Origin: Bacteroidia bacterium
Lineage (GTDB): Bacteria; Bacteroidota; Bacteroidia; Flavobacteriales_E; Vicingaceae
Assembly: GCA_030429925.1 (NCBI GenBank)
Contig: JAUIGQ010000007.1
Location: forward strand, 1 to 44,085
Reading direction: 5' to 3'
Length of the DNA stretch: 44,085 nt
Each line of letters begins with the position of its first letter. Within the stretch, counting starts at the first letter, position 1. Positions 16,635 to 44,002 of this stretch are shown piece after piece. The notes beneath the pieces are model-generated. The model saw nothing but the letters and a program-made list of their open reading frames with translations, was not told where the DNA came from and ran no database searches. The translations under genes and the position numbers were made by a program.

Positions 16635-18563
16635 ATGTTGACCAAATGGGTATTTACACTTCTATTGATCCTAGGTGTAGGAATTACTTGCACCTACTCT
16701 CAATCAGATAGCTCAAACTATAAATTAGTTGAGAAAGCTGAAGCAGTAATTGACCACAATGTAGATTCAGCCTTGTTCTATGCTAAAGTATTGAGCGGGA
16801 GAAAACTAGATTCAACTCTTCTACTAAAGACCTTCAATCTTCTTGGTAATTGCTTGCAAAGAAAAGGGAATCTAGACTCAGCCATGTATTACTATAAAAA
16901 AGTTGAAGAGCTTTCAATTGCCATGAAGGATGATAAGGGAATGGCCATAGTTCTCAATAACATTGGCATTATCCATATCAACAAGGGAGAGTATGATCAG
17001 GCTTTGAAAGCCATTTATGAAGCTGTAGAGTATGAAAAGTTAGTAAATGATTCTACTGGTATGGCAGAGGGCTATTTGAATATTGGGGTGATCTATTATT
17101 ATATGGGAGATCTGGAAAACACTTTGAAATACTTCAAGATCTCCTCGAATATTTCCAAAGCACTTGGAGATCTAAGAGTTTTGAAAAAGGCTTATATCAA
17201 TATTGGGGCTATACATAGTAGAAATAAGGAATATGATGAGGCTATTGAGTACTATGAATATGGATTGGAAGTAAGTGAGGAGTTGAACGATCAAGCTGAT
17301 GCAGTCATATGTCTCCACAATATGGCAGATGTTTACACAATACAAGGGAAATACAAAAAGGCTGAAGAAAACTATAGGAAAGCAATGGATTTCTACAAGA
17401 AATTCGACAATAGAAGAGGTGTTGCTTTAGAACATACAAAACTGGGAATCTTATATAATAAGATAGGTGAATATGATAAGTCTGAAAGATCTTTCAAAAG
17501 ATCAGCAGAAATGGCTGATAGTGGAAAATACTTCAATGTAAGCGAATCTGCATACCAAGGTCTTACTAACTTATACGTGAGCCAGAAGAAATTTAAGCTC
17601 GCTTTTGAAGCAACTCAAGAATTGCAGAAAAGAAGGGACAGTGTATACACTATTGAAAAGGCAAAGAATATGGATGAGTTGCGCACCAAATATGAAACTG
17701 CAGAAAAAGAAAAAATGTTAGCTCTTGAAAAATCAAGAACTGATAGCCTTACCATGGTCAATGCGGTCATAGAAGAGAAAAAGGCGAAAGCAGAGTTGGA
17801 AACTGCCAATAGGAACCAGTGGATCATTGCACTAGCATCTATATTGCTGACTTCACTTTTTGTCTTCTGGGGTTTGATGCAAAGACAAAGATTAAAGGCT
17901 CAAAAGGAGAGACAGGCTGCCTTGATTGAGGAAAGAGATAAAAGAATAGAAGCGGTTTTCAATGCCCAAGAGGAAGAACGGAAGAGAATTTCCAAAGATC
18001 TTCACGATGGAATTGGTCAACAATTAACTGCACTGAAAATGGCCTTTCAGCAACTGAGGCCAAAGATTGACGAAAGCTCAGAGGTAAAGTCGGAGCTCAA
18101 TAAATTAGGAGGAATTCTGAATCAAACGGCTTCAGACATTCGAACTATTTCTCATCAAATGATGCCAAAGACCCTTTCTGAGGTAGGGTTGATTGCGGCA
18201 ATAGAGGATCTTCTCGACAAATACATCAAGCCTACCGGCATAAATTGGAGACTTGAAAATTTGGGGATAGAGCAGCGACTTAATCAGAAAATGGAAGTAA
18301 ACCTCTATAGAATTATTCAAGAGCTTCTGAATAATGTTATTAAACATTCCAAGGCTGATGAAGTGATCTTACAATTGATCAAGAACCAGAACAGATTGAT
18401 CTTGATAGTAGAGGATAATGGAATTGGTTTCCAGAATGGTCAATCAGATGGTCACGGCTTGCTTAATATAAAAAGTAGACTAAACATGCTCAAGGGTGAA
18501 ATGGAAATTGAAGCCGGTCCGGTTAAGGGGAGTCTAACCACCATTAGAATTCCATTAACTTAG
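16635..18563 (+). CDS. TPR sensor histidine kinase (NarX/DesK-type HisKA_3)
   Basis: The 642-residue protein has a signal peptide (residues 1-22) and about six or seven TPR-like repeats between 60 and 330 with motifs such as NIGIIHINKGEYDQALK. A coiled coil follows (about 340-393), then one membrane segment (about 396-414, IIALASILLTSLFVFWGLM). The cytoplasmic kinase has the HisKA_3 H-box ERKRISKDLHDGIGQQL with H457, and the ATPase motifs ELLNNVIKHS, EDNGIGF and HGLLNI. TPRs therefore face the periplasm and probably sense by protein contact. A NarL-type response regulator lies at 20562, with a barrel gene and an opposite-strand glycosyltransferase between. This is the likely but unproven partner. 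Confidence 0.92.
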   Translation: MLTKWVFTLLLILGVGITCTYSQSDSSNYKLVEKAEAVIDHNVDSALFYAKVLSGRKLDSTLLLKTFNLLGNCLQRKGNLDSAMYYYKKVEELSIAMKDDKGMAIVLNNIGIIHINKGEYDQALKAIYEAVEYEKLVNDSTGMAEGYLNIGVIYYYMGDLENTLKYFKISSNISKALGDLRVLKKAYINIGAIHSRNKEYDEAIEYYEYGLEVSEELNDQADAVICLHNMADVYTIQGKYKKAEENYRKAMDFYKKFDNRRGVALEHTKLGILYNKIGEYDKSERSFKRSAEMADSGKYFNVSESAYQGLTNLYVSQKKFKLAFEATQELQKRRDSVYTIEKAKNMDELRTKYETAEKEKMLALEKSRTDSLTMVNAVIEEKKAKAELETANRNQWIIALASILLTSLFVFWGLMQRQRLKAQKERQAALIEERDKRIEAVFNAQEEERKRISKDLHDGIGQQLTALKMAFQQLRPKIDESSEVKSELNKLGGILNQTASDIRTISHQMMPKTLSEVGLIAAIEDLLDKYIKPTGINWRLENLGIEQRLNQKMEVNLYRIIQELLNNVIKHSKADEVILQLIKNQNRLILIVEDNGIGFQNGQSDGHGLLNIKSRLNMLKGEMEIEAGPVKGSLTTIRIPLT

Positions 18564-20561: not shown

Positions 20562-21221
20562 ATGAGTTACAAGCTTATCATAGCAGACGATCATCAATTG
20601 GTTCTTGATGGAATATCGGCAATGATCAACGAGATGCCCGAATTTGAAATTGTTGCAACGGCAAACAATGGTGTTGATGCTTTGCAAAAGCTTGATCAAA
20701 TGGGTGCTGATCTTATCCTGATGGACATAGAAATGCCAAAGATGAATGGGTTAGAGGCAGGTAGAAAGGTCAAAAAGGAATTTCCAGATGTGAAGCTGTT
20801 ATTTTTAAGCATGTATATTGAGAAACCCTTGGTTAATAAAGTAATTGACCTAGGGGCTGATGGCTATATCATCAAGAGCGCAGATAAAGAAGAGTTTTGT
20901 CTGGGGATTAGAAAGGTAATGGAAGGCAAGAAGTATTTCTGTTCTGAAATCACTGAGGTTTTGGCAAGTAATGGAGTTAGTACATCCTTTAGGCAAAATT
21001 TCACCAACAACTCTGAGCTTATATCAATCCTCACTGAAAGGGAAAGAGATGTTTTAAGATTGGTTGCGGAAGGCCTTTCCAACAAAGAAATAGGGTCAAA
21101 ACTGTTCATTTCTCATCGAACAGTAGATACACATAGGACCAATCTCATGAAGAAATTAGATGTACACTCTGTAGCTGAATTGATCAGGTTTGCCTATCAG
21201 ACTGGAGTAGTCTCAAATTGA
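20562..21221 (+). CDS. NarL/FixJ-type response regulator
   Basis: The 219-residue protein has an N-terminal receiver domain (IIADDHQLVLDG, phosphoacceptor D55 in LILMDIEMPKMNG, conserved Lys later in DGYIIKS). A C-terminal LuxR-type HTH follows (about residues 155-210, LTERERDVLRLVAEGLSNKE onward). It probably binds DNA after phosphorylation. The nearest plausible kinase is the HisKA_3 TPR kinase at 16635-18563, since HisKA_3 kinases commonly pair with NarL-type regulators. Its HTH is about 60% identical over some 57 residues to the 68-residue orphan HTH encoded 93 bases downstream. The ATG at 20562 is preferred over an upstream TTG inside the promoter. Confidence 0.94.
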   Translation: MSYKLIIADDHQLVLDGISAMINEMPEFEIVATANNGVDALQKLDQMGADLILMDIEMPKMNGLEAGRKVKKEFPDVKLLFLSMYIEKPLVNKVIDLGADGYIIKSADKEEFCLGIRKVMEGKKYFCSEITEVLASNGVSTSFRQNFTNNSELISILTERERDVLRLVAEGLSNKEIGSKLFISHRTVDTHRTNLMKKLDVHSVAELIRFAYQTGVVSN

Positions 21222-21313: not shown

Positions 21314-21520
21314 ATGTCGAATATCCTTGATCTTACTAAAAGAGAATTAGAAGTTTTAGCTCTGGTAGCTGAAGGTATGTCCAATAAAGATATTGGAAAT
21401 TCCCTTCAGATCAGTCCAAGAACTGTTGACTCACACCGTACAAATATTCGCAACAAAACTGGTATTAAGAATATTGCGGGAATGATTCGTTTCGCATATA
21501 AACACAAGTTGATCCAGTGA
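21314..21520 (+). CDS. Stand-alone LuxR-type HTH DNA-binding protein
   Basis: This 68-residue protein is nothing but a GerE/LuxR-type helix-turn-helix: LTKRELEVLALVAEGMSNKD, then SPRTVDSHRTNIRNKTG and IAGMIRFAYKH. No receiver or sensor domain precedes it, and no in-frame upstream remnant was found, so it appears to be a real small gene, not the end of a broken one. It resembles the C-terminal HTH of the response regulator immediately upstream, consistent with partial duplication. Its TGA overlaps the GTG start of the propeller gene (GTGA), so it heads an operon of exported proteins. It could act as a constitutive regulator of this operon or compete with the response regulator for its sites. 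Confidence 0.88.
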   Translation: MSNILDLTKRELEVLALVAEGMSNKDIGNSLQISPRTVDSHRTNIRNKTGIKNIAGMIRFAYKHKLIQ

Positions 21521-22626
21521 AGCATCTGTTTATATATATCTGCTTGATGGTAGGTCTTATTGTACCCAGTACTTCTCTTGGCCAGAATATTAATATAGAT
21601 GAGAATAAGTGTGTTGTCAAAGAGAAAGCAATGAATATCAGTGGCCTTGATATTTCGCCGGATGGAAATCAACTGGCAATTGTTTGTGCAAGCAACTACC
21701 CACTGATGATCTATGACTGGAGAACCCAAGAGATTCTTAAAGAAATTGATATCAAATCAGATGCACTAGGCTACAGCGTTTCATACTCTAGCAAAGGGAA
21801 CTATCTATTACTACAGGAAAAAACCTTGACCAACAACATTAAGAAGGCCAAACTGAGCAACTTCATGATCATTGATATCAGTCAAGGGAAGGTAATGGAG
21901 CAATATAGGAAGATTGCAGATCTTAAGATTGCTGCAGATGAAAGCCATTACTATCTTTTAGATAAGGCGGAACTATCTGTTTATGATTTAAAGAGTGGCC
22001 AAAAGGTCAAGAGCTTTGAGATAGAAAATGCCAGAAACGCAATTGCTGTTAGTCCGGATGGCAACGACTTGGCTATAGTAGTTGAGCCAACAAAAGAAGA
22101 ACTGGTGCTTGTTCCATCAATTAGAAATGATAAAAAGGCTTTGAAGAATGCTATGAAATACAGGCATATGATCGCTATATATGATATCGGCACAGAGAAG
22201 TTCAAAAAAATCGTACCGGAGATCTATGACAATATCAATACAATGCAATACTCCAAAGACGGAAATAAACTATTGAATTTCAACGCTGCTGCCAATTCTT
22301 ATATAAATGTGATTGATGCAACTGACTACTCTCCCTTGAGAGAGGCTTATATGAGCAGAACCAATGTACAACCTGATTTCTCTTTCAATCCGGATGGAAG
22401 CCTTTTCGGCATTGCTTCCGTTGAAAGATTCCCTACTGTGAACATCTATCAAGCTGGCAAAGGAAGCATGGTAGATCATTATGATACGGAGAATAGGATT
22501 TGGAAAAGCATGAAGCAGAAAATGTATCCAGGCACTTATTCAAGCTTTGTTTTTTTACCAGAGGGCAACTATGTAATAATTGCTTATGGAAATGCCTTGA
22601 TCAAATGGAAAATCGAAGGAAAATGA
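21517..22626 (+). CDS. Exported WD40-like beta-propeller protein
   Basis: The 369-residue protein starts with GTG, overlapping the stop of the HTH gene by four bases. The GTG is supported because it gives a complete signal peptide (MKHLFIYICLMVGLIVPSTSLGQ). The mature part has repeats with ISPDGNQLAIV, VSPDGNDLAIV and FNPDGSLFGIA, the SPDG blade signature of WD40/PD40-like propellers, at roughly regular spacing. It probably binds a partner protein or ligand in the periplasm. The next gene overlaps its stop by four bases (ATGA), so the operon is tightly coupled. No enzymatic motif is visible. Confidence 0.78.
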   Translation: MKHLFIYICLMVGLIVPSTSLGQNINIDENKCVVKEKAMNISGLDISPDGNQLAIVCASNYPLMIYDWRTQEILKEIDIKSDALGYSVSYSSKGNYLLLQEKTLTNNIKKAKLSNFMIIDISQGKVMEQYRKIADLKIAADESHYYLLDKAELSVYDLKSGQKVKSFEIENARNAIAVSPDGNDLAIVVEPTKEELVLVPSIRNDKKALKNAMKYRHMIAIYDIGTEKFKKIVPEIYDNINTMQYSKDGNKLLNFNAAANSYINVIDATDYSPLREAYMSRTNVQPDFSFNPDGSLFGIASVERFPTVNIYQAGKGSMVDHYDTENRIWKSMKQKMYPGTYSSFVFLPEGNYVIIAYGNALIKWKIEGK

Positions 22627-22994
22627 AAAGAACAATCCAATTTGCTCTGATAATATGTATTTGTGTTTGCAGCTTCCAAAGCGATCTCTATGCTCAGAAA
22701 AAAAAGTATTTGATAGAGGAAGAAGAAGTGATCGAAGCGGCTCACAAGGCAATTGAAAAATCTATGGCTGAAGGTGATTTTAAAAAATTTGCCGAGAAAT
22801 CTGAAATAAAGGGAAGTTATATAATGGATATTACCATTAAAAATAAAGGTGAAGTAGCTTCAGTGAAGACTATTGATAGAAATGGAGAGATCGTTCACCA
22901 AAATGAGCTTAAAGACTTCGTGATATCATACAGGTTTCCCTTTAAAATGCAAAAAAACAAGAGTTACAAGTTTCGATATGAATTCAAATTTTAA
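22623..22994 (+). CDS. Small exported protein with a possible TonB C-terminal-like domain
   Basis: The protein is 123 residues from the ATG at 22623, which overlaps the propeller gene stop (ATGA). A longer frame opens at 22500, but it would lack a signal peptide and lie inside the previous gene. The signal peptide is MKRTIQFALIICICVCSFQSDLYAQ. The C-terminal half (about residues 65-123: IMDITIKNKGEVASVKTID, later YRFPFKMQKNKSYKFRYEFKF) resembles the beta-alpha-beta pattern of TonB_C or AgmX-type domains. No TonB proline-rich linker or retained membrane anchor is seen. It may be a periplasmic interaction partner of the flanking propellers. The domain call is tentative. Confidence 0.65.
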   Translation: MKRTIQFALIICICVCSFQSDLYAQKKKYLIEEEEVIEAAHKAIEKSMAEGDFKKFAEKSEIKGSYIMDITIKNKGEVASVKTIDRNGEIVHQNELKDFVISYRFPFKMQKNKSYKFRYEFKF

Positions 22995-23019
22995 TTATCT
23001 AACCAAATCAATTTATAAA

Positions 23020-24654
23020 ATGAAAAGATCACTATTTGTTGTAGCAGCTTTAATCTTCGGATCATTTGCTTTGAATGCTCAAGAGGAAATGGAAGTAGCC
23101 TGGACCAAATCTTATGACCACAAAGGAGAAAGAGTTGGAACCGGCCTGGAAGGAGAAGGTGAAGTAAGTTATACATCCGACAGTAAGACCATGACCGTTT
23201 TTAATACTTCTGATGGTTCTGTGGTATGGTCAAAGGACTTTAAAGACCTAGCACCGAAACTAAGAAAGGTCGATGAACTTATTCCTTTTTGGAAATCTGG
23301 CTGTGTATTCCTATTTGAAAAGAAAGGAGGTAAAGACCAGATCGTAGTGATAGATCTGAAGAAAGGTGAAATGTTGTGGAATACTGAAAAGTATAAGAAT
23401 TTGACTAGAGATAATGTTATCTACATCAAAGAAACAGATGCATTTTTACTTTCTCTTGAAGATAGAATCATATACATTCATGCAAGAACCGGAGAAGAAG
23501 TATGGGAGTCAACTGCCTTTGTCGGCTCTGTTGGTGCATGGGACATTAGAGATGGATACATGACTGCCATGAATATTTTGCCAACTGGATTGTCAGCATT
23601 GTTCAAAGGATTTAAAAATCAAATTGCCAAGATCGACCTATCTAATGGGGATATTGTTTGGACCAATGAATACATTGGATTTGCAGCTAGAAAGGTGATC
23701 ACCAAGGAGAGGATCTTCGACTTAAAGATCACAGAAAACAAGGTTGTGATTACTTTGAACGGACTACAAGTTTATGATTTCAATACAGGTGCTCAATTAT
23801 GGTCAGCTGCCTATCCAGAAACTCCGAAAGTTATTGGTGCACCGGCCGGAGCAAAAGCATTTGGTGTTTATGGGGCAATTGCAGACCCATTAAGAGTAGG
23901 TGATGATATCTATATAATTGAAATGAACAAAAAATCAGATCAGAAGATCAAGAAGTATGATGTTCATACCGGAAAACTTTTATGGACTTCACCTGAGATC
24001 AAAAATGCTAAGGCATTGCCAAATCTATATGTGGTTGAAGACAGAGTGATCGTTCAAATTGGTGGAGTAGTTGAAACTCAAGCTTATATCAGAAGAAAAA
24101 CTCAAGATGGTTGGGAAGAAGAATGGATCGTGGATTATGTGAATGTCAAGCCAAATGGACTACAGGCGTTTAGCACAGAAGACGGTTCCCTAGTTTGGGC
24201 TTCTGAAAAATTCAAAAAAGGAATAACCAATGCATTTGTAGATAATGATATACTATATGTCAGCAGCGGCAAATCCATTTACTCAATGAACTATAAAGAT
24301 GGTGCAGTCAACTTTGAAGAGGATGTCAAGAATGGAGGTGTTGGTAATGCAGTTAAGATCCTTCCATATAAAGACAAGATTGTAGTAGTTGGAGAAAAGG
24401 GTATCTCAACGTTTGCAATGAAGGATGGCAGCCTTCTTAATGCTAATAAGTATAAGAAAGCAGCAGTGTCAGAGCAGGAAGACAATATCCTCTTAATGGT
24501 TACACCAAAGAATGATTTTGCAGCATTTAATTTGGAAGATTGTTCTTATAGAGAGTACAATGCCAAAAAGAACTCACAGCAATCTTTAAGTGAAGATGGA
24601 AGGTTTGTATGGGTCTATGAGAAAAAGGACGTCACCAAATTAAAAGTTAGATAG
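23020..24654 (+). CDS. Exported PQQ-like beta-propeller protein
   Basis: The protein has 544 residues from the ATG at 23020; a frame from 22978 would put extra sequence before the signal peptide and is rejected. The signal peptide is MKRSLFVVAALIFGSFALNAQ. The mature part has PQQ-like blades with recurring W-near-end signatures such as DGSVVWSKDF, KGEMLWNTEKY, TGEEVWES, NGDIVWTNEY, GAQLWSAAY, GKLLWTSPE and DGSLVWASEKF: seven recognisable blades. Catalytic PQQ-dehydrogenase residues are not evident, so it is more likely a scaffold or binding propeller than an enzyme. It follows the small exported protein by 25 bases and is the last gene before a terminator. Confidence 0.85.
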   Translation: MKRSLFVVAALIFGSFALNAQEEMEVAWTKSYDHKGERVGTGLEGEGEVSYTSDSKTMTVFNTSDGSVVWSKDFKDLAPKLRKVDELIPFWKSGCVFLFEKKGGKDQIVVIDLKKGEMLWNTEKYKNLTRDNVIYIKETDAFLLSLEDRIIYIHARTGEEVWESTAFVGSVGAWDIRDGYMTAMNILPTGLSALFKGFKNQIAKIDLSNGDIVWTNEYIGFAARKVITKERIFDLKITENKVVITLNGLQVYDFNTGAQLWSAAYPETPKVIGAPAGAKAFGVYGAIADPLRVGDDIYIIEMNKKSDQKIKKYDVHTGKLLWTSPEIKNAKALPNLYVVEDRVIVQIGGVVETQAYIRRKTQDGWEEEWIVDYVNVKPNGLQAFSTEDGSLVWASEKFKKGITNAFVDNDILYVSSGKSIYSMNYKDGAVNFEEDVKNGGVGNAVKILPYKDKIVVVGEKGISTFAMKDGSLLNANKYKKAAVSEQEDNILLMVTPKNDFAAFNLEDCSYREYNAKKNSQQSLSEDGRFVWVYEKKDVTKLKVR

Positions 24655-24674
24655 GGTTAAGTGAAAATGAAGAG

Positions 24675-24703
24675 AAAGGGGGCCATTTGCGCCCCTTTTT
24701 TTG
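24675..24703 (+). terminator. Rho-independent terminator of the propeller operon
   Basis: AAAGGGG (24675-24681) pairs with CCCCTTT (24692-24698) with a short inner stem, followed by a T-run. It lies 20 bases after the propeller stop and closes the operon that begins at 21314. Confidence 0.85.
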
Positions 24704-24795
24704 TTCTTACTTGCGGATAAGAATAAGCAGTTTTTCATTGTAGTACTAAATTGGCAGACTAATCTTAATTTTATTCCTCAACAAAAAAATTGAAA

Positions 24796-25419
24796 ATGAA
24801 AAAGTTAGGATTTGTTATAGCAACTGCTCTTGCAGTTTTAATTGTGTTTGCCTTCAGTGGCGGAGAAGAGTATGAAACTTTAAAGATCGGCTCCAAAGCA
24901 CCTAAGATCGATTATGAGATGGAATCCACTCAAGGGGAAATGGTCAGCGTAAAATCCTTAATGAAGGAAAATGGAACACTCATCATATACTCCTGCAATA
25001 CTTGTCCCTTTGTGATCGCATGGGAAGACCGCTATCCTGAAATTGCCGGTTGGGCTGAATCTGCCAAAGTTGGATTTGCTCTCATTAACTCTAATGAAGC
25101 TAAAAGGCAAGGTGATGATTCAATGGAAGAAATGAAGAACCACGCTGCTGAAAAGGGTTATCCAGATATTCCTTACTTGGTAGATAACAATTCAGAATTG
25201 GCAAATGCCTATGGTGCAAAGACTACCCCTCATGTATTCTTGTTCGATAAGAATTGGAAACTGGTATATGAAGGTGCGATCGATAACAATCACAAGGACA
25301 TGAATGCAGCTGATCAGCCTTATCTGAAAAATGCATTGAAGAATCTCTCAGAGGGAAATGTGATCGACCCTAATGATACTAAAGCGCTAGGCTGTAGCAT
25401 CAAAAGGGTAAAGATCTAG
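24796..25419 (+). CDS. Exported or membrane-anchored thioredoxin-fold protein (redoxin type)
   Basis: The 207-residue protein starts at the ATG at 24796 (an upstream TTG at 24790 adds two residues). It has an N-terminal hydrophobic segment (about 4-20), then a redoxin fold: APKIDYEMESTQGE, LIIYSCNTCPFVIAWEDRY with a CNTC motif, INSNEAKRQGDD, and the cis-Pro segment AKTTPHVFLFDKNWKLVYEGAIDN. This pattern is common among AhpC/TSA-related thioredoxin-family proteins of unknown target. It probably acts in the periplasm as a thiol reductase. It is monocistronic: a terminator lies upstream and the convergent DUF3078 gene ends 10 bases after it. Confidence 0.88.
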   Translation: MKKLGFVIATALAVLIVFAFSGGEEYETLKIGSKAPKIDYEMESTQGEMVSVKSLMKENGTLIIYSCNTCPFVIAWEDRYPEIAGWAESAKVGFALINSNEAKRQGDDSMEEMKNHAAEKGYPDIPYLVDNNSELANAYGAKTTPHVFLFDKNWKLVYEGAIDNNHKDMNAADQPYLKNALKNLSEGNVIDPNDTKALGCSIKRVKI

Positions 25420-42364: not shown

Positions 42365-42688
42365 CTAACCGTTCGCGGTGTCTAATTCAGTCGTCTCCTT
42401 AGTCCCGGAGGCATTAGTTCCCTCAACGCCGGCAGCAATCTCATCGCGGATATCCTCATGTTCTGCTATCATAGCAATTAGCCGCTCTAAAAATTTATGC
42501 GGGTCAATTTCAAGGCTATTAGCAATCAACCGAATTTGCTCCAGGGACTCGCCATATTCACTGGAGACGACCGCAACAAATGGATCGCCATGCTTGTTGA
42601 CCTTTATAATTTCATCATAGAAATGAGCCCTATCAAAAGCCTTTCGAAGTTCTTTGCGAATATCCGCTACAGAAAATGCCTTCGTCAT
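42365..42688 (-). CDS. Phd/YefM-like antitoxin candidate
   Basis: From the ATG at 42688 the protein has 107 residues. A TTG at 42709 would add seven, but the ATG has an excellent Shine-Dalgarno sequence (GGAAAGGAGAAATC) just before it. The N-terminal half reads FSVADIRKELRKAFDRAHFY, then IIKVNKHGDPFVAVVSSEYGESL. This is the beta-alpha DNA-binding and dimer fold of Phd/YefM antitoxins (a start like S-x-A-x-x-R-K-x-L, then V-x-x-x-G-x-P-x-A-V-V). The C-terminal part (about residues 50-107) is helical, then Thr/Glu-rich and probably disordered, the usual toxin-wrapping region. It lies 23 bases downstream of an unknown 204-residue gene that may be its partner. Confidence 0.55.
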   Translation of the reverse strand: MTKAFSVADIRKELRKAFDRAHFYDEIIKVNKHGDPFVAVVSSEYGESLEQIRLIANSLEIDPHKFLERLIAMIAEHEDIRDEIAAGVEGTNASGTKETTELDTANG

Positions 42689-42711
42689 ATGATTTCTCCT
42701 TTCCAGCAAAA

Positions 42712-43360: not shown

Positions 43361-43543
43361 TGTGTACCACTCCAACTTCGGTTCGCCGCTTTAGCTTTTT
43401 GGTGATCGTAAGCTGGAAATCGTAACTCCCCTTGACGCCCTCTCCACACCCCGCTAATGGCCCGCGCGTTCGGTGCGGGGCTTTGCCCTCACGCTGAAAG
43501 ACATAATGAGCTGAACGCTGGTGGTTTGGCTTGTTTGTGGGAG

Positions 43544-43579
43544 GTCCCCGCCTGCGCGGGGACTCGCAAGCAGGCGGGG
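43544..43579. repeat. GC-rich hairpin repeat with alternative pairing
   Basis: GTCCCCGC (43544-43551) pairs with GCGGGGAC (43556-43563). Alternatively CCCCGCCTG (43546-43554) pairs with CAGGCGGGG (43571-43579). Only one of these stems can form at a time. Similar elements are common in sphingomonad intergenic DNA. Confidence 0.6.
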
Positions 43580-43645
43580 CTGGCAGAGTAATCCGGCAAC
43601 GGTCCGGGTGGAGGGTTCAAGCTCGTGCAATGGCTTGGTGATGGT

Positions 43646-43678
43646 CCGTTCGTACTTCGACGGGCTCAGCACGAACGG
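43646..43678. repeat. Sphingomonad-type palindromic repeat, copy 1
   Basis: CCGTTCGT (43646-43653) and ACGAACGG (43671-43678) form 8-base inverted arms around CTTCGACGGGCTCAG. The last 28 bases recur at 43785-43812 with two differences. Repeats with the core TTCGACxxGCTCAGCACGAACGG are, as I recall, widespread in Sphingomonadales. Confidence 0.75.
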
Positions 43679-43740
43679 GTCGGCACGATCTTTTCCCCAT
43701 CATCCAGATTTGAGGCCGGTTCGGCGGACGAGACTTTTTC

Positions 43741-43770
43741 CCGTTCGCCCTGAGCCTGACGAAGGGCGAG
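43741..43770. repeat. Palindromic repeat of the CGCCCTGAGCCTG type
   Basis: TTCGCCCTGAGCCTGACGAA is followed by GGGCGAG, with TTCGCCC pairing loosely with GGGCGA across a GAGCCTGACG centre. It looks like a second subtype of the neighbouring repeats and is in opposite orientation to them. Confidence 0.6.
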
Positions 43771-43783
43771 CTGGCGAGACCGT

Positions 43784-43812
43784 CCGTACTTCGACACGCT
43801 CAGCACGAACGG
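43784..43812. repeat. Sphingomonad-type palindromic repeat, copy 2
   Basis: This 29-base copy (CCGTACTTCGACACGCTCAG then CACGAACGG) matches 43651-43678 with two base differences over 28 bases. The left arm is truncated relative to copy 1. Confidence 0.75.
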
Positions 43813-43891
43813 TTTTGAGATGCCGGCGCTCTCGGGCACCGGAATGGGTTTTCACGAAGGGTCTGGCCTTGTGCCGCGCTCCCTTCAGCAA

Positions 43892-43939
43892 AAGTGGGAA
43901 CCGGTGGAACCTCATCAGGGGAAGTGGGAACCGGTTCCC
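43892..43939. repeat. Tandem AAGTGGGAACCGGT repeat with palindrome
   Basis: AAGTGGGAACCGGT occurs at 43892-43905 and again at 43922-43935, 30 bases apart. The second copy extends to a perfect 14-base palindrome GGGAACCGGTTCCC (43926-43939). It lies just upstream of rpsL and is of a type seen in alphaproteobacteria. Confidence 0.6.
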
Positions 43940-44002
43940 CGCCCGGATGAGGTGACGGAATTTCCGCCCGGAAGGGGCGCGAATAAGAGGAACGGATATA
44001 TA

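Follow-up and report, generated by a model that had tools for sequence, protein, structure and literature searches.

The window, i.e. the whole stretch of 44,085 nucleotides that was analysed, contains a compact forward-strand run of four genes, three of which encode exported proteins (PROP, TONB and PQQ, together referred to as the trio). These genes and the features surrounding them are as follows:

16635..18563, forward strand: TPR histidine kinase (HisKA_3/HATPase), the likely partner of the response regulator
20565..21221, forward strand: response regulator with receiver domain and LuxR HTH, a likely regulatory neighbour
21314..21520, forward strand: HTH gene, stand-alone LuxR/GerE protein of 68 aa, sharing a 4-nt GTGA overlap with PROP; accessory gene
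21517..22626, forward strand: PROP, exported WD40-like beta-propeller of 369 aa with ISPDG/VSPDG blades and a GTG start; core gene 1
22623..22994, forward strand: TONB, exported stand-alone TonB-C/TolA-C-like protein of 123 aa, with an ATGA overlap; core gene 2
23020..24654, forward strand: PQQ, exported BamB-like propeller of 544 aa, following TONB after a 25-base gap; core gene 3
24655..24795, forward strand: slot of an OmpA/PD40/CRD gene in relatives (L015, L017, L025), empty in the window
24672..24702, forward strand: intrinsic-terminator-like hairpin with GC stem and T7 tail, closing the operon

All four open reading frames and the hairpin could be located, and thus the layout reported by the first-pass annotation (GTGA and ATGA overlaps, the 25-base gap and a terminator at the 3' end) was recovered. 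Terminator-like sites in the window do not exceed chance in number (3 observed, 3.3 expected); the hairpin is the only one among them with a 12-pair stem and lies immediately 3' of PQQ. The coding sequence directly 3' of PQQ is a redoxin gene (24796-25419). At the far end of the contig, GC content is 0.61 over positions 43500-43999 as compared to about 0.40 before, and the last ORF (43521-43955) is dissimilar to the rest of the window: this end is possibly mis-joined or foreign. A small minus-strand ORF (42365-42709) near this odd contig end resembles, by eye, a Phd/RelB-type antitoxin.

Pfam agrees with the families that had been proposed for the four proteins: a small regulator, a propeller, a TonB-C-like protein and a PQQ-like propeller. 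The HTH protein matches GerE over positions 3-57 of 57 (71 bits, E 6e-20; cutoff 23.5) and thus represents a complete GerE domain without receiver domain, PROP carries WD40-like repeats and PQQ matches PQQ_2/BamB (88 bits, E 7e-25), with TONB falling just under the cutoff for TonB_C (21.9 bits, E 2e-4; cutoff 24.6). TONB gave a good AF2 model (pLDDT 84, core above 90), and each of its best 20 Foldseek matches in the PDB is a C-terminal domain of the TonB/TolA type, with probabilities of up to 1.00 but E-values no better than 0.002. For PQQ, five sequences yielded an AF2 model of only fair quality (pLDDT 68): the top Foldseek matches are BamB structures (E 4e-14) with poor global superposition, and about ten four-stranded repeats are visible in a model that does not settle ring closure or blade number. 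An adjacent Cys-Cys pair, as found at the cofactor site of quinoproteins, is absent from all 28 PQQ-family proteins, which argues against a quinoprotein enzyme and is in line with the earlier description of a propeller lacking clear enzyme residues. The signal peptides noted on the three larger proteins were also seen by us: reading by eye, PROP, TONB and PQQ all carry cleavable-type signal peptides with GQ or AQ ends, and the products of the trio look periplasmic. TONB has no membrane anchor beyond its signal peptide, and in most of its homologues the signal sequence with its AQ end abuts the domain directly (by eye).

The distribution of these genes was followed by searching for PQQ, initially among 41 relatives, followed by 395 Bacteroidia genomes. 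PQQ is the best-conserved core gene (26/395 genomes); TONB was found as a single copy in 24 genomes, every one of which also has PQQ, and PROP in 24 genomes, 23 of them with PQQ. The complete trio is present in 23 of the 395 genomes (that of the window and 22 others), covering at least six families (f1, f3, f9, f13, f23 and f61), with two further trio loci on a Bacteroidales contig (L027) and a Flavobacteriales contig (L025). Wherever a single contig spans the trio, the order is always PROP-TONB-PQQ on one strand, the genes overlapping or lying close together; for G322 and G361, the trio was counted across a contig break that runs through PROP. Conserved synteny, the check proposed by the first-pass annotation, thus holds for the trio, and its refuting condition, that no other genome has the genes together, failed, given the 22 other sampled carriers. 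The co-occurrence of TONB and PQQ is highly significant (hypergeometric p 2e-36 by genome and 1e-18 by genus, values uncorrected for phylogeny), and the conservation of the trio across distant genomes indicates a grouping far above chance. At the same time, the trio is missing from some 94% of the Bacteroidia genomes sampled, a phylum-wide draw of 396 genomes contained no PQQ carriers except the genome of the window, and a scan of genome contigs gave only four relatives. There are exceptions: G240 has TONB and PQQ with PROP missing, G271 and G343 have a divergent PQQ alone, and G301 of family f5 has a PROP homologue (L084:2455-3579) but neither TONB nor PQQ. In G017, PQQ is broken into two frames of 377 and 169 aa (L022:9326-11018), owing either to recent pseudogenisation or to a sequencing error; the gene is intact in the near-twin genome G004.

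Gene trees, computed as quick searches, show the same main groups for PROP and PQQ, with the short TONB tree agreeing less sharply; the unit has thus been inherited together. Family f1 contains two separate versions of the trio, the second of which (G004, G017 and G018) is nearest to G036 from family f13, and this placement hints at either horizontal movement or old divergence. Taken together, the trio is a conserved operon of three exported proteins. The small HTH gene, which the first-pass annotation had included in a four-gene operon, is attached to the trio only in the branch of the window (the window, G006, G003, G019, G008 and L025), and its distribution rules it out as a core part.

Instead, the more telling fourth gene is one that the original set omitted, namely that encoding an OmpA/PD40/CRD protein. 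An OmpA-domain gene lies directly 3' of PQQ in eight loci (G006, G003, G008, L025, G036, G026, G046 and G350), and its product combines a TPR or discoidin-like N-terminus with a PD40 propeller, a CRD and a peptidoglycan-binding OmpA domain. These linked proteins form two subfamilies in two separate clades, both of which lie outside the clade of queE-linked PorE; the occupation of one slot by two OmpA subfamilies argues for a functional tie to the trio. Orthologues of the TPR type (E <= 1e-180) were detected in 4 of 345 genomes; each of these carries the trio and has the gene at that locus. G019 lacks the OmpA gene, and no such gene lies next to the trio in f9, G004, G017 and G018; it is thus not essential to the module. 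No close copy was found elsewhere in the genome of the window, which is 93% complete; since the gene is present in G036 and in relatives from the window's own branch, loss is the simplest reading, and the lineage of the window probably lost it, as far as can be judged from an assembly of this completeness.

The linked OmpA protein shares its TPR, PD40 propeller, CRD and OmpA domain with PorE in case of the TPR type, but scores far below the NCBIfam cutoff (256-287 bits in the two scanned proteins of this type, cutoff 600; 192 bits for the discoidin type), belongs to another clade and has no obvious lipobox. PorE-type genes are numerous in trio genomes, several of which encode a further OmpA homologue adjoining queE that is likely PorE itself; a linkage of PorE to queE/queC has been reported (PMC12204202). 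As the queE-linked PorE reference itself scores only 283, clade membership is a stronger argument against PorE identity than the score, and the separate clade together with a separate queE-linked PorE in the same genomes rules out the linked protein as PorE. By eye, the linked proteins display AQ-type signal peptides, as opposed to the lipobox-like N-termini of several queE-linked PorE proteins, and an outer-membrane lipid anchor is hence not evident. The closest named family of the TPR type is CHU_0125, yet the match (332 bits) remains below the equivalog cutoff of 620; we saw no description of a propeller trio beside CHU_0125.

Upstream of the trio, homologues of the response regulator are found in G006, G003, G008, L025, L027 and G046, and the combination of a TPR histidine kinase and a LuxR response regulator precedes most loci of the window's branch, the trio of G046 and the TONB-PQQ pair of G240. 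A kinase and a LuxR-type regulator also lie beside divergent PQQ genes in G271, G011 and G032; the pair is not found beside the trio in f9, G004, G017, G018, G036 and G026. This neighbourhood is compatible with regulated expression of the trio, although it is not universal. Individual arrangements vary: in G019 (L016:2932-7197) the small HTH gene follows two TPR kinases, with no response regulator in between, in G271 (L044:8028-13614) a TPR kinase, a regulator, a small LuxR HTH and a 309-aa protein with a T9SS sorting domain precede the divergent PQQ, and the PQQ-type propellers of G032 (L023:1453-8149) and G011 (L024:5274-8997) show 25-27% identity.

Among known systems, Tol-Pal (TolB propeller, TolA C-terminal domain, Pal OmpA domain and CpoB TPR) offers the same set of folds once the linked OmpA protein is counted, this peptidoglycan-binding component being encoded with the trio in the eight relatives and absent in the window. 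The differences are nevertheless substantial: TONB is not membrane-anchored, there is no motor gene at the locus and the trio contains an extra BamB-like propeller. TolB_N (PF04052) gave no match in five trio genomes (G000, G003, G008, G036 and G046), with E. coli and other controls matched, and a canonical TolB is therefore rejected. MotA/ExbB had no match on contig C147, to which the window belongs, the motors lying on other contigs; the five trio genomes examined have both ExbB-type motors and classical TonB_C proteins elsewhere. TONB shares the C-terminal domain fold of TonB energy transducers but has neither a retained N-terminal transmembrane anchor nor a proline-rich linker, and without an inner-membrane anchor it cannot transmit force alone. 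A phage-defence system was likewise rejected: the products look exported, none of the three exported proteins matches PADLOC, and the matches at these loci are limited to a generic HTH and a MotB-like hit to the OmpA domain. The module thus carries Tol-Pal-like parts yet fails Tol-Pal membership, and the best reading is that it uses folds of the Tol-Pal/PorE type without being Tol-Pal, PorE or BamB. A limited search of the open-access literature found no published description of the gene set, in line with the first-pass annotation, which knew of no named system of this composition.

From the sequence comparisons, the trio could, at close to even odds, form a regulated periplasmic complex of the cell envelope at the interface between outer membrane and peptidoglycan, anchored by OmpA where such a protein is present. 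We infer its assembly, docking, wall attachment, envelope role and regulation as follows: the BamB-like propeller PQQ would act as scaffold onto which PROP and TONB dock, TONB probably via edge-strand addition to its partner; the co-encoded OmpA-family protein, where present, would fix the complex to peptidoglycan, and the module would serve to stabilise or organise the interface of outer membrane and peptidoglycan; the TPR histidine kinase and LuxR regulator would switch the module on, with the small HTH protein as a putative additional regulator in the window's branch. The association with OmpA points first towards envelope stabilisation; the complex may also serve in assembly or sensing, as the first-pass annotation proposed. 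Deletion of chu_0125 in Cytophaga hutchinsonii leads to higher permeability and more vesiculation, indicating damaged outer-membrane integrity (PMC5891637), and PorE has been proposed as a compact Tol-Pal-like tether between outer membrane and peptidoglycan in Bacteroidetes, possibly with a TonB/TolA-like partner (PMC12204202). Several observations speak against the envelope complex: some carriers, the window included, lack the OmpA gene, the linked OmpA proteins show no evident lipid anchor, TONB is not anchored in the inner membrane, few sampled Bacteroidia have the trio, and PorE-type genes abound in these genomes. A bolder version, which we consider rather doubtful, is that the trio and its OmpA partner constitute a distinct Bacteroidota counterpart of Tol-Pal: here, a soluble TonB/TolA-C domain and two propellers would control a peptidoglycan-bound OmpA/PD40 protein in place of the motor-anchored TolA-TolB-Pal, and the set would move between lineages as a unit.

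Other functions can be envisaged for the same parts. BamB (YfgL), itself a propeller of PQQ repeats, is the best Foldseek and NCBIfam match of PQQ, which could suggest an accessory of outer-membrane protein assembly in which PQQ, aided by PROP and TONB, feeds BamA or chaperones as a BamB counterpart. We regard this as unlikely: PQQ reaches 45 bits against the BamB equivalog cutoff of 285, is longer (544 aa compared to about 370), has no lipobox and different partners, and is restricted to the few carriers given above, whilst the solved Bacteroidota BAM complexes are, in the available part of their description, presented without a periplasmic BamB-type subunit, the Bacteroides BamI propeller being extracellular. 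There is a similarly small chance that the trio is a periplasmic sensor head, which sets the activity of the TPR kinase and LuxR regulator in response to a bound ligand or to envelope stress. The proximity of this pair to the trio, to TONB-PQQ and to divergent PQQ genes would fit such a role, but the trios that lack an adjacent pair do not, and regulators adjoining their own targets are the simpler reading.

Propellers are common scaffolds for ligands and enzymes, and together with the patchy, partly horizontal-looking distribution of the trio this would agree with a complex that binds or converts a particular substrate such as a polysaccharide or metal, in which the propellers act as binding platforms; given that no gene for transport or catabolism is conserved next to the trio and that PQQ has no quinoprotein-like Cys-Cys pair, we consider this explanation quite improbable. 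An accessory to type IX secretion or gliding, with a PorE paralogue and the propellers assisting secretion, appears very unlikely, even though the linked TPR-type OmpA protein has PorE architecture and the sorting-domain protein of G271 adjoins a divergent PQQ: the same genomes hold a separate queE-linked PorE, no T9SS gene was recognised near trio loci and most sampled Bacteroidia do without the trio.

If PQQ were to serve the BAM machinery, this would be relevant to the question of a BamB equivalent in any Bacteroidota, the existence of which has been called unclear (PMC12578637). Returning to the envelope complex, Bacteroidetes were reported to have no identifiable tol-pal loci, and further systems stabilising the outer membrane are predicted to await discovery (PMC12204202). 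The trio operon, together with its peptidoglycan-binding partner, would offer a direct genetic handle on outer membrane-wall attachment in Bacteroidetes.
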